From an uncultured Bacteroidia bacterium (GTDB lineage: Bacteria; Bacteroidota; Bacteroidia; Bacteroidales; UBA932): a stretch of 32,461 nt of DNA. The stretch spans positions 1 through 32,461 of the forward strand of contig CADAJF010000023.1 in NCBI GenBank assembly GCA_902788175.1, read 5' to 3'. The notes below the pieces were generated by a model that was not told where the DNA came from, searched no databases, and saw only the letters and a program-made list of their open reading frames with translations. Shown here one piece after another: positions 1 to 24,995 of the stretch (position 1 is its first letter; each line of letters begins with the position of its first letter). The position numbers were made by a program, and so were the translations under genes.

Positions 1-1
1 A

Positions 2-85
2 TTAACATAATCCCATCGGGATTGTGTAACAAGTCGCCGCGAGCGGCGCTTGTTTCCGCTTCGCACACAATCCGGATTATGTTAA
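2..85. repeat. Long imperfect hairpin at the left edge
   Basis: Positions 2-13 pair perfectly with 74-85 (12 bp, TTAACATAATCC / GGATTATGTTAA). After a 5-nt one-sided bulge (14-18), 19-27 pair with 65-73 (9 bp). The stem resumes at 29-33/49-53 and 35-39/44-48 with one extrahelical T. A long stem with extrahelical bases and a GTTAAGT at its right foot (81-87, fits GTTRRRY) resembles an integron attC. It could equally be a tyrosine-recombinase core site, the 3' terminal domain of the adjoining RNA, or a terminator read leftward. The window starts at its foot, so the outer flank cannot be examined. The structure is clear; its role is inference. Confidence 0.6.
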
Positions 86-142
86 GTACGCTCCGTCAGT
101 GAGTTGCGAGTGTCCTACCTCTGAACTCCCGGGCGAGGCGGC

Positions 143-1042
143 GGCAGGAAAGGGACTGGCGGCAGTGGTCGGGTTGCACCCGGCCCTTTGCCAGCCCCGC
201 ACCGGGTAGAGGAATCGGGGCCCCAATTTCCCCAATTCCTCCACCTCGGCGCCGTCACGCATAGCCATAGTGCTTCTCGACCGGCATCTCCCGCATTCAG
301 CGTCAAAGCAGTGCGAGCATCCTGCCGCCTTACGCAGCTCCGCTGCTGGGTCGTTCCAGGCCGTGACTCCTCTTCCTCCGCAAGCTCCGTCAGAAGAGTC
401 CCGTCCCTCCACTCCTCGGTACGGCTTCGCCGTGATTATACCTGGCCGCTATTCCTCCACACCTCCGCCGGGGTGAACCCCGCCGGAAGTGTTCCGGGCA
501 GCCAGGAGGCAGGCGTTCCGCCTGCTGGCGCAGACAAAGTCCGGCTAAACCGGCCTTAGACTGCGCCGATGGCTCCGCATCAGCAGTGTCAGCGCCATAC
601 TTCTATTCAGAGATCAGTGCCAGTTCGCGTAGACCGTCGTACACCGCGCCAACGTCAGTGCGTCGCTCACAGGGTGGGCCGTTCCGGCCCAGGCCACGGA
701 GGGAGTCTGCCCACCCGCAGCGCCGGTCTTTGTCGGGGTCTGGGAGCCAAAGGTCTCCCAGCCCTTGCACCGCCAAAGCCCGCCGCGTCCCCACACTGCC
801 AGACACCCTCCGTGGCCACGCTCCACTCGCTTCGCTCGTTCCGCGCCCTATGGCACTGGCAGACTCACAGCCGCCACACAAGGCCCCCGCCGCAACCCTC
901 GCGTCTGCGAGACTGCCAGCACCATAGGCCATCCAGATACTCACGCCCAAACCTCATCACAACCTCGACCGGCATCACCCGCCCGAAGGACGGCAAAAGG
1001 GTTTATATATACACCAAAGGAGGCAGCGGCTGACGCCGCTGC
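143..1042 (-). ncRNA. Candidate large structured RNA, family not recognised
   Basis: About 900 bases have no convincing ORF but dense helices: 143-154/184-196 capping 170-174/178-182; 205-220/230-245; 334-338/342-346; 418-425/429-442; 459-473/478-492; 501-515/519-529; 531-544/550-563; 676-681/685-690; a long-range stem 692-709/800-817 (17 of 18 positions) enclosing 740-746/755-761; a long-range stem 847-866/909-928; and 1023-1030/1035-1042. Five mismatches are A·C on the + strand (208/242, 216/234, 463/488, 854/921, 855/920). They become G·U pairs on the complement. Five A·A mismatches become U·U. This favours transcription from the - strand. Size and phage-like context recall ornate phage RNAs such as GOLLD and ROOL, but I recognise no signature of either. 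Ends are uncertain; the RNA may extend to the hairpin at 2-85. No convincing promoter was found. Confidence 0.6.
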
Positions 1043-1147: not shown

Positions 1148-1426
1148 ATGGAGAACCAGTTTGAACTGATGAACGCCCTGATCAATGCAATCACCGACGC
1201 CGTGACCACCTACGCCGGCGAGGTTGATATGTGGGACGGGACACCTATACTGCTTGTGAATGAAGAGGAAAGGGTGGCGACCATCGACCTTCCCGGAAGT
1301 CGGCCCGGCTGGGAGAAGTTCTCCCTGGAGGAGCTTGTCTGCGAGAGTGAAGATGGAACTCTCGAGCCCGACCACGATGCCATCTATGAACTGGCCAACC
1401 AGTTTGTAGACCTTCGACAGCGTTGA
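1148..1426 (+). CDS. Small acidic hypothetical protein, phage-like region
   Basis: A 92-residue protein, rich in Glu and Asp, with no signal peptide, membrane segment or family that I recognise. The N-terminal ~22 residues could form an amphipathic helix (FELMNALINAITDAVTTY). A WDGTPILLV segment and ATIDLPG look like short beta strands, and the C-terminus is helical again. It is the first gene rightward of the structured-RNA region and lies 31 bp upstream of the next ORF. The ATG at 1148 is the only good start. A short TTTG at 1091-1094 could serve as a -33 element, but no matching -7 box is seen. It probably belongs to the same phage-like unit as the genes that follow. Function unknown. Confidence 0.6.
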   Translation: MENQFELMNALINAITDAVTTYAGEVDMWDGTPILLVNEEERVATIDLPGSRPGWEKFSLEELVCESEDGTLEPDHDAIYELANQFVDLRQR

Positions 1427-1457: not shown

Positions 1458-2237
1458 TTGCCCTGCTTAAGACTTGTAAACCGGGCTCCGGCTCATGCCA
1501 TAACACCGCTTGCCACTGTGCCACGTTTTTATCCGGATATTCTCATAGGCGATTGCTGGGCTTCCCTCGGCGATAAGACCTTCTATCACCGGAACGGCAA
1601 GTGCTACTACCGCAAGAAGGCCTCGCCGGTGTTCCCAGGTACTGACGGCCAACTGGATCAGGGGGCGCTCCATCACCGTGCCCTGGAAGCCTGGCGGAGT
1701 CAGCCCCAGGAGATTCAGGCAGTCTGGAACGAGTATGCCCAGAGCGTTCCCAGCCAGCGGTTGCCCTATGATCCTGGCACGTCCATATCCGGATACAACC
1801 TGTTCGTCTCCGCCTATCACGGTTTCGCCCAGTTGGGGGATGAGCACGTACCGGTCCCGCAGCGAAAGTGCTCGTTCCCGGTATTCCATCTGGATTTCGA
1901 GTCGGCCATGGTCGTAAACTCGTCCAACCTTCTGTTGAAGTTCCGTTCAACATCCAGCGAGAATGCCGGTTCCTCACGTTACCATTATCTATTGAAACTC
2001 CAACTGGAGCGCCCGGGCTATGGCAAGAATCCTGGACTGATGCGCAATTTCCTCGCCCTGCCAGGACCTTCCGGCGATGGGACAGAAATATCGTTTCTCA
2101 TCAGAGATTACCGCCGGATCTGGGGGCACGACCTGCCGGAATTCCAGGCACACTGCAAGTATCTTCTTCTCGACTCCGTGACCGGTTTCCGGTGCAGATT
2201 CAAGGAAAAATCTTTCCAATTTTCTTACGGATTTTAG
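1458..2237 (+). CDS. Beta-rich protein with shared N-terminal module, no ATG start
   Basis: A 259-residue reading frame of the same layout as the genes at 2369 and 4953. The shared module runs over residues ~25-120: a GDCWASLGDKTFYHRNGK strand region, then a helical segment ending AWRSQPQEIQAVWNEYA, then ISGYNLFVSAYHG. The remainder is predicted beta-rich with no recognised domain. There is no ATG anywhere near the 5' end. The listed start is TTG at 1458, and the frame is open back to 1431. By comparison with the two sister genes the protein should begin near codon 24, where no ATG, GTG or TTG is present. It may use a rare start or be a 5'-decayed copy. It ends with TAG, and the following 130 bp are AT-rich and hold the promoter of the next gene. 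Likely phage structural or accessory; function unknown. Confidence 0.5.
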   Translation: MPCLRLVNRAPAHAITPLATVPRFYPDILIGDCWASLGDKTFYHRNGKCYYRKKASPVFPGTDGQLDQGALHHRALEAWRSQPQEIQAVWNEYAQSVPSQRLPYDPGTSISGYNLFVSAYHGFAQLGDEHVPVPQRKCSFPVFHLDFESAMVVNSSNLLLKFRSTSSENAGSSRYHYLLKLQLERPGYGKNPGLMRNFLALPGPSGDGTEISFLIRDYRRIWGHDLPEFQAHCKYLLLDSVTGFRCRFKEKSFQFSYGF

Positions 2238-2368: not shown

Positions 2369-3337
2369 ATGATAGCGCTTCCTTCCATTGCTTTCGGGGG
2401 CTTTTCTGGGTCGGCAAAGGGTGTTACGGCTCGCCAAGTAGGCGGCCGTAGCATCCTTTCCGTTCGGACTTGGCCAACTGGAGCCACTACCAATGCCCAG
2501 GTAGCCCGCCGCGCCTCTCTGGCGAAAATCTCCAAATCCTGGAAGCTTCTCACCTCCGACCAAATGCACGACTGGGACCGGCTGGCAGAACACGCCAGCG
2601 GAGTCTCCGTATTTGGCAAGAAGGCTGAGATTTCAGGAATGAACCTCTACATCCGCCTCAATGTCAACAGGGCTATGGCAGGTGAGGCTCTTCTTACTAC
2701 GGCTCCGGAGTCAAATATGGCGGTCCCAAATGTAGAATACACTCAGGTAGTCATCACTCCTCAGCTGATGGTCATCAATGGTATCCGTCACCAGTCCTCT
2801 CCGTACAAACTCGTTGTGAAGATGTCCGTCTCCCAGAGCGCCGGAGTTTCCAACGGCTGGAGCAAGACCGTTATCGTCACGCCCGGTATGGAGGACGACT
2901 GGGGTGAGGCCAACGTGACCAGGCTCTACCTGAAGACAATCGGAGTAGAACCGGTGCCGGGCGAAAAGGTGTTCGTCGAAGTTTACTGGCTGGACACCTC
3001 GACAGGCTTTACCGGTCAGACGGCAAGAGAATCTGTTGTAGTTACCGGAGAATCCTCTTACGCCGGCCGCGTTCGTGCTACGATGGACAATCTTCGCCCT
3101 GATGAGGAAAGCCACGTGGCCGCACTGGATGTGGATTTCTCTACCGGTGCTCCGGTAGCCGTTTTCAATGCTGAATGCCTCGGTCATAGCAACGTGGCAA
3201 GTTCCGAGGTCTATCTGGACCAGCAACTACCAGCCGAGATTATCGGTACCGGCATAGCTATTGGCCGTTCCTGCGAAGACTCCGGTCATATCAATGCCCA
3301 GTCCTACCTTGTATATATGTACAATCGCGACGGATAG
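2369..3337 (+). CDS. Beta-rich phage-like protein with shared N-terminal module
   Basis: A 322-residue protein, probably a virion-surface or tail-associated protein by context (inference). Residues ~4-100 carry the module shared with the genes at 1458 and 4953: PSIAFGGFSGSAKG, then SWKLLTSDQMHDWDRLA, then ISGMNLYIRLN. The opening FSGSAKGVTARQVGGRS and the W..L..Q..W pattern resemble the DUF6266-like proteins of Bacteroidota, a tentative assignment from memory. Residues ~105-322 are strand-rich and end SYLVYMYNRDG. The start is the ATG after a good promoter. The frame ends at TAG (3335-3337) but stays open for 25 more sensible codons to TAA at 3413-3415. A recent nonsense mutation or amber readthrough is therefore possible. 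Confidence 0.65.
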   Translation: MIALPSIAFGGFSGSAKGVTARQVGGRSILSVRTWPTGATTNAQVARRASLAKISKSWKLLTSDQMHDWDRLAEHASGVSVFGKKAEISGMNLYIRLNVNRAMAGEALLTTAPESNMAVPNVEYTQVVITPQLMVINGIRHQSSPYKLVVKMSVSQSAGVSNGWSKTVIVTPGMEDDWGEANVTRLYLKTIGVEPVPGEKVFVEVYWLDTSTGFTGQTARESVVVTGESSYAGRVRATMDNLRPDEESHVAALDVDFSTGAPVAVFNAECLGHSNVASSEVYLDQQLPAEIIGTGIAIGRSCEDSGHINAQSYLVYMYNRDG

Positions 3338-3433: not shown

Positions 3434-4198
3434 ATGTTCAACAGTACAGGAAATAACTTCGGTGCCGGCCAGATCCAGTTCAAGGATTACCAGGCCCCGA
3501 ATTACGTTGTGCTCAACGCCAAGCTTACCTTTGACCCGGCCAATTCGGATTACCAAGCATGCAACCAGTTGGAAATATACGTCCCGGATCTGACCATTGA
3601 TCGCAGCGCCGTCGGCGGCGTGTTTATCCGCTTCATCGAAACCCAGACTTACTCCTGGGGAGATTCGGTCTATGATGGCGGTACTGTCCTCAAGTCATGG
3701 ATCAAGGACAAGAACACCATCGTCATCGAGAAGCAACCCTGGTTTGACCAGAATGGCCCTCTCACTATCTACATCCTGACGCTGTATCCGCAACTCAATC
3801 AGGGTGCAAATACCATCAAAGGCACAAAGCAGCGCCTGACGGTGACCACGGAAGGTAATTACCTCCGGTTCTCCAGCGACACCTTCATTGTGGTGTTCGA
3901 CCACTGGGTATTCATGCACCTGCAGTTCTCCAGCTGTTCCTATGCCCAGCGCGACCTTCCCTGGGAAGCGACGTTTGAGCAGATGCCGGCAAATGTTACT
4001 GCAGACGTGCCGGTCCCCGGTGGTGGAAACCAGTTCCACCAGGACTGCTTCGGTATGGGAGAGTGCCACATCGAGAACAAGATCTTCACGATGGACCGCC
4101 GAGTAGCGGGCTTCTGGGATACCGGACGTGAGCCGTTTGCCTTCGCCTTCCTCGTGAGGGAGGGAGAGGGGCTCGAACCGGAGCCTGTAGAAGAATAA
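3434..4198 (+). CDS. Hypothetical beta-rich phage-like protein
   Basis: A 254-residue protein with no signal peptide, TM segment or recognised domain. It is aromatic-rich and strand-rich throughout. Examples are LEIYVPDLTIDRSAVGGVF near residues 46-64 and the long aromatic stretch around FIVVFDHWVFMHLQF (about 152-166). It has an acidic Glu/Pro-rich C-terminal tail (EGEGLEPEPVEE). The C-terminal part MGECHIENKIFTMDRR is distinctive but unknown to me. It does not share the N-terminal module of its neighbours. The start at 3434 follows the previous frame by 18 bp if the extension at 3338-3415 is translated. The gene ends 14 bp before the holin-like gene, consistent with one late operon. A virion or tail-fibre component is plausible from position only. 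Confidence 0.6.
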   Translation: MFNSTGNNFGAGQIQFKDYQAPNYVVLNAKLTFDPANSDYQACNQLEIYVPDLTIDRSAVGGVFIRFIETQTYSWGDSVYDGGTVLKSWIKDKNTIVIEKQPWFDQNGPLTIYILTLYPQLNQGANTIKGTKQRLTVTTEGNYLRFSSDTFIVVFDHWVFMHLQFSSCSYAQRDLPWEATFEQMPANVTADVPVPGGGNQFHQDCFGMGECHIENKIFTMDRRVAGFWDTGREPFAFAFLVREGEGLEPEPVEE

Positions 4199-4212: not shown

Positions 4213-4482
4213 ATGTCTCAGAGGAAGAAAATAGAACTCACGCGCCTGCAGGGCATCATCGCTGTGGCCAGTTTTAGCAGCGGCGTCCTGATTGCCTCCG
4301 TGTGCCTGTTCTTCATCCCGCCGCTGGGTGAGATAGCCAACTCCGCGATTTCAATCGTGAGCGAGTTGCTCGTCCTCTGCGGGGCTATCCTGGGCGTCAA
4401 AGCATCATACGATGTCAAGTTCCGGAAGTTCGAGGCTGAACTCCGGGAGGTCATTGAAAACGAGAAACAACCTACAACCTAA
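4213..4482 (+). CDS. Holin-like small membrane protein
   Basis: An 89-residue protein with two hydrophobic segments, about residues 14-37 and 41-62, joined by a short PPLGE turn. They are flanked by a basic N-terminus (MSQRKKIELTRLQG) and a charged C-terminal helix (VKFRKFEAELREVIENEK). Short length, two TM helices, a charged tail and a position immediately before a spanin-like gene (3 bp gap) match a class II holin layout. Holins are too diverse for a firm call by motif. A generic small membrane protein remains possible. ATG at 4213 is preferred; no in-frame ATG lies nearby. Confidence 0.5.
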   Translation: MSQRKKIELTRLQGIIAVASFSSGVLIASVCLFFIPPLGEIANSAISIVSELLVLCGAILGVKASYDVKFRKFEAELREVIENEKQPTT

Positions 4483-4485
4483 CCT

Positions 4486-4956
4486 ATGAACCGCTTCGTG
4501 CCACTGTTCCTGCTCCTCGCTGCCACCTCGTGCGGCTCTCTCCGGAGAGTCGCCGAGGTTGACAGCACCCGCGTGGAAGTCAGGACCGAAGTGAAAACCA
4601 TTCACGACACCGCCTGGATGGAACTGCCGGTCATTGTGGAAAGAGTGGCCACACTGGACACTGCCTCTGTTCTGGAGAACAAATACGCCCGTTCAGAGGC
4701 TTCTGTGTCCGGCGGAATTCTTTCTCATTCGCTGGAGACCAAGCCGGTCAAGCAGCCGGTGGCCGTCGAGAGCCGGGAAATCGTTCGCGATTCCATCGTC
4801 TTCCGTGATAGAGTTGTCCATGAAGATATCTACATCGAGAAGCAGCTGAACGGCTGGCAGAAGTTCCGTCTTAGGATGGGTGATGTGTCCCTCATTCTGA
4901 TTGCTATCGCAATACTATACCTTTTGTTCAACAAACTTAACCTTTTCAAACTATGA
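4486..4956 (+). CDS. Unimolecular-spanin-like lipoprotein
   Basis: A 156-residue protein with an N-terminal lipoprotein signal (MNRFVPLFLLLAATSC, lipidated Cys at 16), a Val/Glu/Arg-rich periplasmic middle region (about 20-130) and a C-terminal TM helix (about 133-151, VSLILIAIAILYLLF). An outer-membrane lipid anchor at one end and an inner-membrane helix at the other is the defining layout of phage u-spanins such as T1 gp11. These join the two membranes at the end of lysis. The pre-TM motif EKQLNGWQKFRLRMG resembles Bacteroidota prophage proteins found beside holins. It follows the holin-like gene by 3 bp and overlaps the next start by ATGA. The architecture is seen; the lysis role is inferred. 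Confidence 0.6.
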   Translation: MNRFVPLFLLLAATSCGSLRRVAEVDSTRVEVRTEVKTIHDTAWMELPVIVERVATLDTASVLENKYARSEASVSGGILSHSLETKPVKQPVAVESREIVRDSIVFRDRVVHEDIYIEKQLNGWQKFRLRMGDVSLILIAIAILYLLFNKLNLFKL

Positions 4957-5651
4957 AGTACATTCCTTCTATCGCGTTCGAAGAGATGTCCGGTAGCGCC
5001 AAGGGCGTGACCGCGGCCAAGATGAAAGGCCGTAAGTACATCAAGAACCGTGGTTACGGCAGCGGCATCCGCACCAGTGACCAGGCAAAGGTCAAGGGCG
5101 TCTTCAAGATGCTCACGACCAAGTGGAAGAGTTTGACCAACGAGCAGATCCTCGCCTGGAACAAACTCGCTCTCTCTCAGGAAGGCCGTTCCGTCCTCGG
5201 AACCAAGGCCAAGATCTCCGGTGCCAACCTGTTCACCCGTCTGAACTTCTGGGTTGTCACCTGCGGCGGCCAGGTGATGGTCACCCCTCCGAGCCTCGTT
5301 GGTGTGGAATCTCCATCCACCGCGACCGTGGTCTGCACCAACCAGGCGTTCACCTTCAAGCTCGACGAGGCCCTGGCCGACAACGGCGGCATCTTCCTCG
5401 TGATCGAGGCCTCCGAAGGCCAGAGCAACGGTGTGTCCCGCGCTCATGCAAAGGCCACCCAGATCAAGATGGTCGAAGAGCCGACCGATGCCGCAATCGA
5501 CATCAAGACCGACTACGAGACCAAGAACGGCGCCCTCAGCGCTGCTGCTCCGAAGGTCTTCTTCCGCTACTTCCTCGTCAACAGCTCGACCGGAGAGCGC
5601 TCCGTCTCGATGCTGGCCGAGGCCAAGTACACCGTCGTGAACGGTGGTTAA
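4953..5651 (+). CDS. Beta-rich phage-like protein with shared N-terminal module
   Basis: A 232-residue sister of the protein encoded at 2369. Residues 1-100 align clearly: KYIPSIAFEEMSGSAKGVTA against IALPSIAFGGFSGSAKGVTA, KWKSLTNEQILAWNKLA against SWKLLTSDQMHDWDRLA, and ISGANLFTRLN against ISGMNLYIRLN. The C-terminal ~130 residues are shorter and diverged but still strand-rich. They include NGVSRAHAKAT, which recalls NGWSKTVIVT in the sister. Its ATG overlaps the stop of the spanin-like gene (ATGA), so it is translationally coupled. It is the last gene of the cluster and is followed by a strong terminator. Duplicated virion, fibre or surface-protein genes are the best contextual guess; no biochemical role can be assigned. 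Confidence 0.65.
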   Translation: MKYIPSIAFEEMSGSAKGVTAAKMKGRKYIKNRGYGSGIRTSDQAKVKGVFKMLTTKWKSLTNEQILAWNKLALSQEGRSVLGTKAKISGANLFTRLNFWVVTCGGQVMVTPPSLVGVESPSTATVVCTNQAFTFKLDEALADNGGIFLVIEASEGQSNGVSRAHAKATQIKMVEEPTDAAIDIKTDYETKNGALSAAAPKVFFRYFLVNSSTGERSVSMLAEAKYTVVNGG

Positions 5652-5684
5652 CCGACGCAGAAGTTCCGCTTCTCTTCCAGGATT

Positions 5685-5715
5685 GCCCCGGTGTCGAAAG
5701 GACATCCGGGGCTTT
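5685..5715 (+). terminator. Intrinsic terminator ending the phage-like cluster
   Basis: GCCCCGGTGTC (5685-5695) pairs with GACATCCGGGGC (5701-5712) around a GAAAG loop with one bulged T, giving an 11-bp GC-rich stem. It is followed by TTTCGCTCTTC. The U tract is short, but the stem is very stable and sits 33 bp after the last cluster gene. Confidence 0.6.
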
Positions 5716-5720
5716 CGCTC

Positions 5721-5751
5721 TTCGGGAAATCAAAGAATTTCGCTACCTTTG
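5721..5751 (+). promoter_or_regulatory. Promoter candidate between phage-like cluster and obgE
   Basis: TACCTTTG at 5744-5751 matches TAnnTTTG exactly. TTCG at 5721-5724 lies 19 bp upstream as a weak -33 element. The predicted start is near 5758, leaving about 260 nt of leader to obgE. A second, weaker box (TTACTTTG, 5962-5969) lies closer to obgE, so two starts are possible. The rest of 5652-6021 holds the terminator, an inverted repeat and one small ORF, and nothing else that I can identify. Confidence 0.45.
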
Positions 5752-5829
5752 TACTTTGTATGAGGCCTGCCGCAGGTGGCTGTAGCGAAAAAAGTGAAGA
5801 AAATTGGCCTTCAAAACATTAAGTTCATT

Positions 5830-5974
5830 GACTGCAAAGTTGAAGTTACGAGGTTTTAACCCACCTGAATAATGGCAAAACACCGTAAAAATACGCAAGT
5901 AGCTTACAAATTTTTGATTGCACTTTTGGCTGATATTGTCCAAAATCCTGTTACCAGTTTGTTACTTTGCAGTC
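5830..5974. repeat. 11-bp perfect inverted repeat upstream of obgE
   Basis: GACTGCAAAGT at 5830-5840 is the exact reverse complement of ACTTTGCAGTC at 5964-5974. Each copy contains an ACTTTGCAGTC promoter-like -7/start segment, one on each strand pointing away from the interval. The arms flank a 43-codon ORF. Divergent promoters or a degenerate recombination site are both possible. Confidence 0.4.
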
Positions 5975-24588: not shown

Positions 24589-24599
24589 GCCTGAATAGG

Positions 24600-24995
24600 T
24601 GGAGGTGAGCGGACTCGAACCGCTGTCCAAACGTCCTGCCAGGCGGCTTTCTACATGCTTATCCTTCCTTTGGTTTTCGAGGCAGCCCTGCCGGAAGGCG
24701 GGCGAAGCTACCCTTAGCTTTTGAGTCTTAGCCGGCTTTAAAAGCGTCTGCCGGAGCAGCCTCAAATGGATGATACCCCTTGATCGGCCCTTAAGAGGCG
24801 GAAGGTCCGAGGGATACTCGTCGGCCTCGCAGCCTTGGCGAGGCGGATTAAGCTAATTGCCTTGGGCGAATTAAGCAGCGAGTGCGTAGTTGTTGTTGGC
24901 AACTGATTTTTTGGAGTCTGAGATTTACGGGCAAGGCTCCCACGCCCGGCATGCTTACCGTCCAACACTGGCGCTGTCAAAACCAAAACACCCCC
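24600..24995 (-). ncRNA. ssrA: Transfer-messenger RNA
   Basis: Rescues stalled ribosomes. The 5' end GGGGGTGTTTTGGTTTTGAC (24995 leftward) and the 3' end (CACCTCC, 24607-24601, plus discriminator A at 24600) form the seven-base acceptor stem GGGGGTG/CACCTCC with one G·U. The T arm is GGTTCGAGTCC. The genome continues CC then T, so the 3' CCA is completed enzymatically. The tag frame is 24900-24871: codons GCC AAC AAC AAC TAC GCA CTC GCT GCT and stop TAA, giving ANNNYALAA. That ends in the LAA signal and matches the Bacteroidota pattern. A Bacteroidota promoter lies just upstream. Confidence 0.96.

Follow-up and report, generated by a model that had tools for sequence, protein, structure and literature searches.

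What is encoded at the start of a stretch of Bacteroidales DNA where no protein appears to be encoded? The window, i.e., the whole stretch of 32,461 nucleotides that was analyzed, comes from an uncultured bacterium of the UBA932 lineage. Its bases 1-1042 hold no credible gene, and plus-strand genes run from 1148 onward (Table 1). An earlier note, made from the sequence alone, proposed that 143-1042 specifies a large structured RNA, read from the minus strand. We consider it probable that bases 1-1042 make up the greater part of the gene for a very large non-coding RNA, on the minus strand. The gene would belong to a small phage-like element of gut Bacteroidales that resides in the chromosomes of one family. 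The observations behind this reading are homology, covarying helices, absence of coding, association with a conserved gene cluster (with endolysin genes after it in a few relatives), and a built-in hairpin whose arms are those of the probable host dif.

Distribution and extent of the conserved region

Relatives of the region were sought with blastn and with R1, a covariance model of the hairpin at 835-930 on the minus strand (22 copies, 27 pairs). With 143-1045 as the query, 38 of 398 genomes from the window's family gave matches, some of them short and some copies partial; with 1-1150, 19 of 199 did. Some genomes carry two copies of the region. R1, under stricter filters, matched 15 of the 299 family genomes searched and, across the order, 1 of 295, the window's own. 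The model was built from 22 of 23 copies (L111, where part of the hairpin is missing, was left out), and it picks up further loci outside its building set. In addition, 80 named loci were kept from 161 relatives of p232, a protein encoded near the region; these are from Bacteroidales or Bacteroidota MAGs, many titled from ruminants. A search of INPHARED with the RNA region and with p232 found nothing, and IMG/VR gave two p232 loci. The earlier note looked to Bacteroidales phages for homologues. Relatives do have phage-like neighbors, but the contigs in which homologues were found belong to a single Bacteroidales family and not to known phages.

The conserved module measures about 1.6 kb. The window begins where contig C23 of its genome (G000) begins, and this contig start falls within the module. 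In relatives, conservation reaches to about -480, and the RNA gene goes on for some 0.3-0.5 kb beyond window base 1, a remainder that the window copy lacks. The right end of the interval first proposed, 1042, was accurate. Its left end, 143, was too narrow, conservation extending from window base 1 and beyond.

The right (5') edge of the module is sharp, at 1042, where it is formed by the GCAGCGGC-loop-GCCGCTGC hairpin. A plus-strand terminator hairpin at this position was considered and not accepted, as there is no clear T-run. Inspection by eye recognized no minus-strand promoter at this edge, and the promoter-like boxes seen there point toward the plus-strand genes. The copies show two alternative 3' domains at the left edge, both of which end, in many copies, in ACCGCUUU and then an AUCGGCC-like sequence. 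In copies L111, L117, and L122, several AUCGGC repeats lie beyond the RNA end on this side. Some stretches vary between copies of the RNA in the manner of exchangeable blocks, and short submotifs recur within it. The submotifs GCGGGUGAUGCCGGU and GCACUGACGGU are repeated within one RNA, on the minus strand, in several copies; they resemble UGAUG/CUGA kink-turn elements.

Table 1. Features of the first 5.7 kb of the window
Feature	Position	Strand	Basis and remarks
Large structured RNA gene (part)	1..1042	-	blastn family, covariation, extent; 5' end near 1042, contig cut at 1
Hairpin with two inverted dif-like sites	1..86		arms TTACACAAT, ATTATGTTAA; asymmetric bulge; helices 6-13/74-81, 19-28/64-73
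Domain closed by helix 140-149/320-329	140..329	-	consensus helix 33; 10 bp, double changes at 4 pairs, pairing in 98.7% of cells
Hairpins 441-506, 509-525, 527-567	441..567	-	conserved, double changes (consensus helices 17-25)
Hairpin 675-691 and long domain closed by 692-711/798-817	675..817	-	consensus helices 9-14
Longest hairpin	847..928	-	conserved AGUCUC/GAGUCU, tandem U·G/G·U wobbles; helix 847-873/902-928
GCAGCGGC-loop-GCCGCTGC hairpin	1023..1042	-	consensus helix 1 of the aligned copies
p92, small ORF	1148..1426	+	relatives at 6 places in fetched loci; no family match
p259, divergent neighbor of the RNA	1458..2237	+	locus comparison
p322, relative of p232	2369..3337	+	sequence comparison
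p254	3434..4198	+	model mostly beta; no confident fold match
p89, hydrophobic	4213..4482	+	no Pfam match
p156, lipoprotein-like, C-terminal hydrophobic stretch	4486..4956	+	by eye; no Pfam match
p232	4953..5651	+	model: helical N-terminal half, FN3/Ig-like C-terminal half

Coding potential, folding, and covariation

The region could have been a gene whose protein was overlooked. This was rejected: each of nine ORFs is kept open and in frame in only 0-4 of 22 homologues, so that no conserved protein frame was found among them and the earlier judgment that there is no credible gene was right. Substitutions between the window and its relative L103 are spread evenly across codon positions (30/29/26).

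The single sequence of 143-1042 folds better than any of 20 dinucleotide shuffles on the minus strand (z -6.55) and likewise on the plus strand (z -8.04). The plus-strand value is the more extreme, so folding of one sequence does not give the choice of strand. An alignment of 23 copies gave a fold energy of -611.5 on the minus strand and -560.9 on the plus strand, whereas 10 column shuffles averaged -327.5. (One fold of 31 aligned copies left out 8 as partial or divergent.) The minus-strand consensus structure of the 23 copies has 279 pairs, and 91.2% of its 6162 cells hold standard pairs. Cells changed on both sides number 520, as against 173.3 in shuffled alignments and 96-149 when the structure is slid, and the covariation score is 0.251, as against 0.114 and 0.058-0.083, respectively, with the proviso that a structure derived from the same alignment is favored over slid versions of itself. 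Double changes are found in 116 of the 279 pairs (shuffle mean 73.9). Not one of 500 shuffles matched the observed value of any covariation measure. The main helices are more than chance, and from the covariation, and from the fact that no ORF survives in over 4 of the 22 homologues, we conclude that the structure is under selection. Homologues with covarying helices were thus found, as judged by shuffle and slide controls and not by R-scape.

Both long-range helices described in the earlier note are where it placed them. The first, 692-709/800-817, consists of 17 Watson-Crick pairs plus an A·A; the second, 847-866/909-928, consists on the plus strand of 17 Watson-Crick pairs, two A·C, and one A·A. 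The hairpin containing the latter (847-928) is also the richest in compensation, with 17 of its 27 pairs changed on both sides among 22 sequences.

Which strand is read

The same hairpin is the most informative as to strand. Two adjacent pairs within it are U·G in 15 of 22 copies and G·U in 19 of 22, the rest being U-A or G-C, and A·C is absent from all 27 pairs. If the plus strand were the one that folds, these wobbles would be conserved A·C mismatches; the minus strand is therefore preferred. R1 scores the window at 99.8 bits on the minus strand and 35.4 on the plus, and other loci scored on both strands again gave the higher score on the same sense.

For the region as a whole, a strand-neutral test was limited to helices common to the folds of both strands (225 pairs, 11 disjoint sequence pairs), since bias from fitting is thereby avoided. 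Read on the minus strand, there are 55 changes from Watson-Crick to GU versus 32 from Watson-Crick to AC (P = 0.018, phylogeny ignored); the control, transitions at unpaired positions, gave 255 A/G versus 221 C/U (P = 0.13, phylogeny likewise ignored). A cruder count, of single transitions off the dominant pair, gave 101 G·U versus 84 A·C. As this last count is near parity, the strand signal must be called modest globally, but it is strong locally, in 847-928. The earlier note had argued from A·C mismatches that turn into G·U pairs when the complement is transcribed. Consensus pairs in the window do go in this direction, with 21 G·U versus 4 A·C in minus-strand letters, a ratio that is biased because the structure was fitted on that strand. 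The broader claim of selection for a minus-strand RNA structure finds support in the wobbles of 847-928 and in the strand-neutral test, both of which prefer the minus strand.

The gene cluster beside the RNA

Six genes, p259, p322, p254, p89, p156, and p232, form a cluster that accompanies the RNA in either orientation, not all of them at every locus. Of the 51 RNA-bearing loci (the window included, and a list of 13 duplicate loci set aside), 34 have p259 less than 2 kb from the RNA domain and 41 have another cluster gene less than 6.5 kb from it, counts that are inflated because some of the loci had been found by way of p232.

The seven proteins in the window match no Pfam family at E 0.1, their PHROGs and NCBIfam matches are all weaker than E 0.01, and in these three databases no capsid, terminase, or replication gene was recognized among them. 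Candidate labels are holin-like for p89, spanin-like for p156, and a relation to 'DUF6266' for p232, p322, and p259; Pfam, PHROGs, and NCBIfam gave no confirmation of any of these labels. Fold matches of p254 had low TM and were not used, and the structural matches of p232 were to generic FN3/Ig only. In locus L218, a phage lysozyme (E 3.8e-45) comes directly after the p232 relative. In both L036 and L037, a single ORF separates p232 from an M15 endolysin downstream (Peptidase_M15_3, E 2e-20 for the one tested).

The bounds of the element can be seen in two related copies, which share L021 483-6171 and L109 7034-12878 and diverge outside. Since similarity ends there, the element in these loci spans 5.7-5.8 kb. 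Neighboring genes on the left, as read from the sequences, vary: a replicative helicase, response regulators, restriction genes. An empty-site comparison found that regions upstream of obg differ in other species (minus-strand loci were not reoriented). A known phage was rejected, as neither the RNA region nor p232 has a match in INPHARED and no capsid, terminase, or replication gene was recognized. So was a small circular virus, exact terminal overlaps of 12-399 bases being present in 0 of 26 contigs.

Several loci depart from the usual arrangement. Two gene clusters adjoin in opposite orientation beside the RNA in L140 and L141, and p259 is opposed to the rest of the cluster in L183 and L189; several elements may accumulate at one place. 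In L111, L117, L122, and L123, the rest of the cluster is replaced by an ORF on the other strand, to the right of p259, which we presume to be integrase-like. A piece of the L111 protein has one Pfam match, Arm-DNA-bind_5, below the cut-off of that family. It is as if other mobile elements use the spot to the right of p259. Finally, two ORFs take the place of p254 in L103, the closest relative (5288-5951), and p322 is split in L133:2757-3850.

A dif-like hairpin within the module

The arms of the hairpin at 1-86 are identical to those of a probable host dif, TTACACAATTTATATTATGTTAA, found elsewhere in the window's own genome (G000:C29:31634), while the centers of the two differ. The site TTACACAATTTATATTATGTTAA is found identical or with one to two differences in seven other genomes searched, and its right arm is that of E. 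coli dif, as given in PMC3025954. Its identification as the host dif is probable, judging by its sequence and not by placement with respect to GC skew. The hairpin is not the host dif itself: the probable host dif lies elsewhere, and there are genomes with two copies of the element. In four carriers (G000, G634, G512, and G686), the dif match is on a different contig from the element, except in G634, where 67 kb lie between them (the left flank in G000 is absent from the assembly). A GC-skew switch at the hairpin was looked for in the nine loci with both flanks and was rejected, the sign changing in L028 only.

A fold of longer copies (25 of 32 were used and 7 dropped) pairs approximately +180 to +188 with -45 to -53, in relation to L103. 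This helix encloses the hairpin, which therefore lies inside the RNA structure. Through the embedded hairpin, a locus for a structured RNA may be linked to Xer recombination.

Interpretation

How might such an element work? The minus-strand transcript would accumulate and fold as drawn, and the RNA may serve as a self-folding scaffold, either an RNA particle or an RNP, as is thought for the phage RNAs GOLLD and ROOL, to be employed in the productive cycle of the element. The structural or particle role is suggested by analogy with these RNAs. Host XerC/XerD would act on the element's DNA at the dif-like hairpin, a proposal made because no recombinase gene was recognized in the cluster, and the different center of the hairpin would prevent recombination with the chromosomal dif. 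A bolder version is that a giant RNA of about 1.5 kb is the structural core of an undescribed phage-like element, forming an RNA or RNP particle at lytic release, with the dif-arm hairpin coupling the element's DNA to chromosome resolution by XerC/XerD. In this full form, the idea is speculative, and we think it unlikely.

Perhaps, however, it is DNA that folds. The region might act single-stranded, as an origin, packaging, or attachment region of a mobile element with a single-stranded stage, the hairpin being an attP like that of CTXphi. Good folding on both strands would fit, as would the near parity of the single-transition count, the lack of a minus-strand promoter recognizable by eye, and the dif-like hairpin itself (helices 46-48), conserved in sequence and with few wobbles in either sense. 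Yet the tandem U·G/G·U of 847-928, conserved and never A·C, and the wobble asymmetry of the strand-neutral test speak for RNA, and the hairpin lies inside the module of an element that keeps apart from the probable host dif in the four genomes checked. We regard a role as DNA as improbable, though worth keeping in mind.

It is also conceivable, if rather doubtful, that the large RNA is a regulator and not a scaffold, for example one that controls, through base pairing, either the divergent p92/p259 operon or genes of the host. The nearness of p259 at most loci and the short repeated submotifs would be in keeping with this, but a long-range architecture this large exceeds the needs of simple antisense, and at several loci the RNA is kept where the cluster is inverted or reduced. 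As for the view that the hairpins arose by chance, whether in a decayed gene or in a stretch rich in G+C and free of genes, the high G+C and the existence of partial and truncated copies are what one would expect, but the covariation far above shuffled and slid controls, the column-shuffle energies, and the sharp, conserved right edge are not, and we hold this explanation to be very improbable indeed. For the main helices, chance is refuted by those energies, the covariation, and hairpin 847-928.

Bacterial RNAs that exceed 500 nt and have a conserved architecture are, to our knowledge, few. The role of phage-borne GOLLD and ROOL is an open question. The present class, a further one of larger RNA, brings a defined gene neighborhood, endolysin-adjacent relatives, and many natural variants, hence power to detect covariation and a testable context. 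It becomes possible to ask whether the RNA is made at lysis, whether it multimerizes, and whether the element depends on it.

Comparison with known elements and RNAs

CTXphi-type elements are integrative mobile elements that exploit Xer by means of a dif-like attP. The element considered here is similar in that its cluster in the window has no recognized recombinase and its hairpin has inverted dif-like arms, which, being identical to those of the probable host dif, would make it a dif-like attachment site. It differs in that the hairpin lies within a conserved module and not at the module's edge. Also, integration at the host dif was not seen in the four carriers checked, which hold the element apart from the probable dif, and the left flanking genes vary between loci.

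With respect to known RNAs, cmscan with Rfam at gathering thresholds found only tmRNA in the whole window, and no GOLLD, ROOL, or OLE. (The tmRNA gene is at 24597-24995 on the minus strand, with the tag peptide ANNNYALAA.) In the region 1-1200, at E up to 10, there were ten weak unrelated matches and again no GOLLD, ROOL, or OLE. No Rfam family credibly matches the RNA region on either strand, and membership in one was therefore rejected. No description of the RNA was found in the literature and databases searched, most subscription journals lying outside their coverage. The suggestion in the earlier note that the RNA could be new is supported by this lack of an Rfam match, by the covarying homologues, and by the absence of a protein frame.

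ROOL is shorter than the window RNA. OLE, a large and structured RNA described from Gram-positive bacteria, has no settled exact function; the window RNA is also large and structured but comes from Bacteroidales and lacks an Rfam match. According to PMC12286853, GOLLD is a very large, ornate RNA of phages and prophages, many members exceeding 800 nt, and its expression goes up during lysis; ROOL is a large RNA of phages or prophages with complex secondary structure; and both form RNA-only cages. The window RNA shares with ROOL a large size, phage-like context, and complex secondary structure, and differs in its gene context and in having no Rfam match. Like GOLLD, it is very large and ornate, but it has no Rfam match, and its R1 matches in the genomes searched are confined to the one family. 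With respect to location, GOLLD lies in phages or prophages and often near tRNA genes; here, endolysin genes lie beside relatives of the cluster, and the window has no tRNA gene. The best reading is that the window RNA represents a new class of large ornate RNA, akin in kind to GOLLD and ROOL and, by Rfam, a member of neither.
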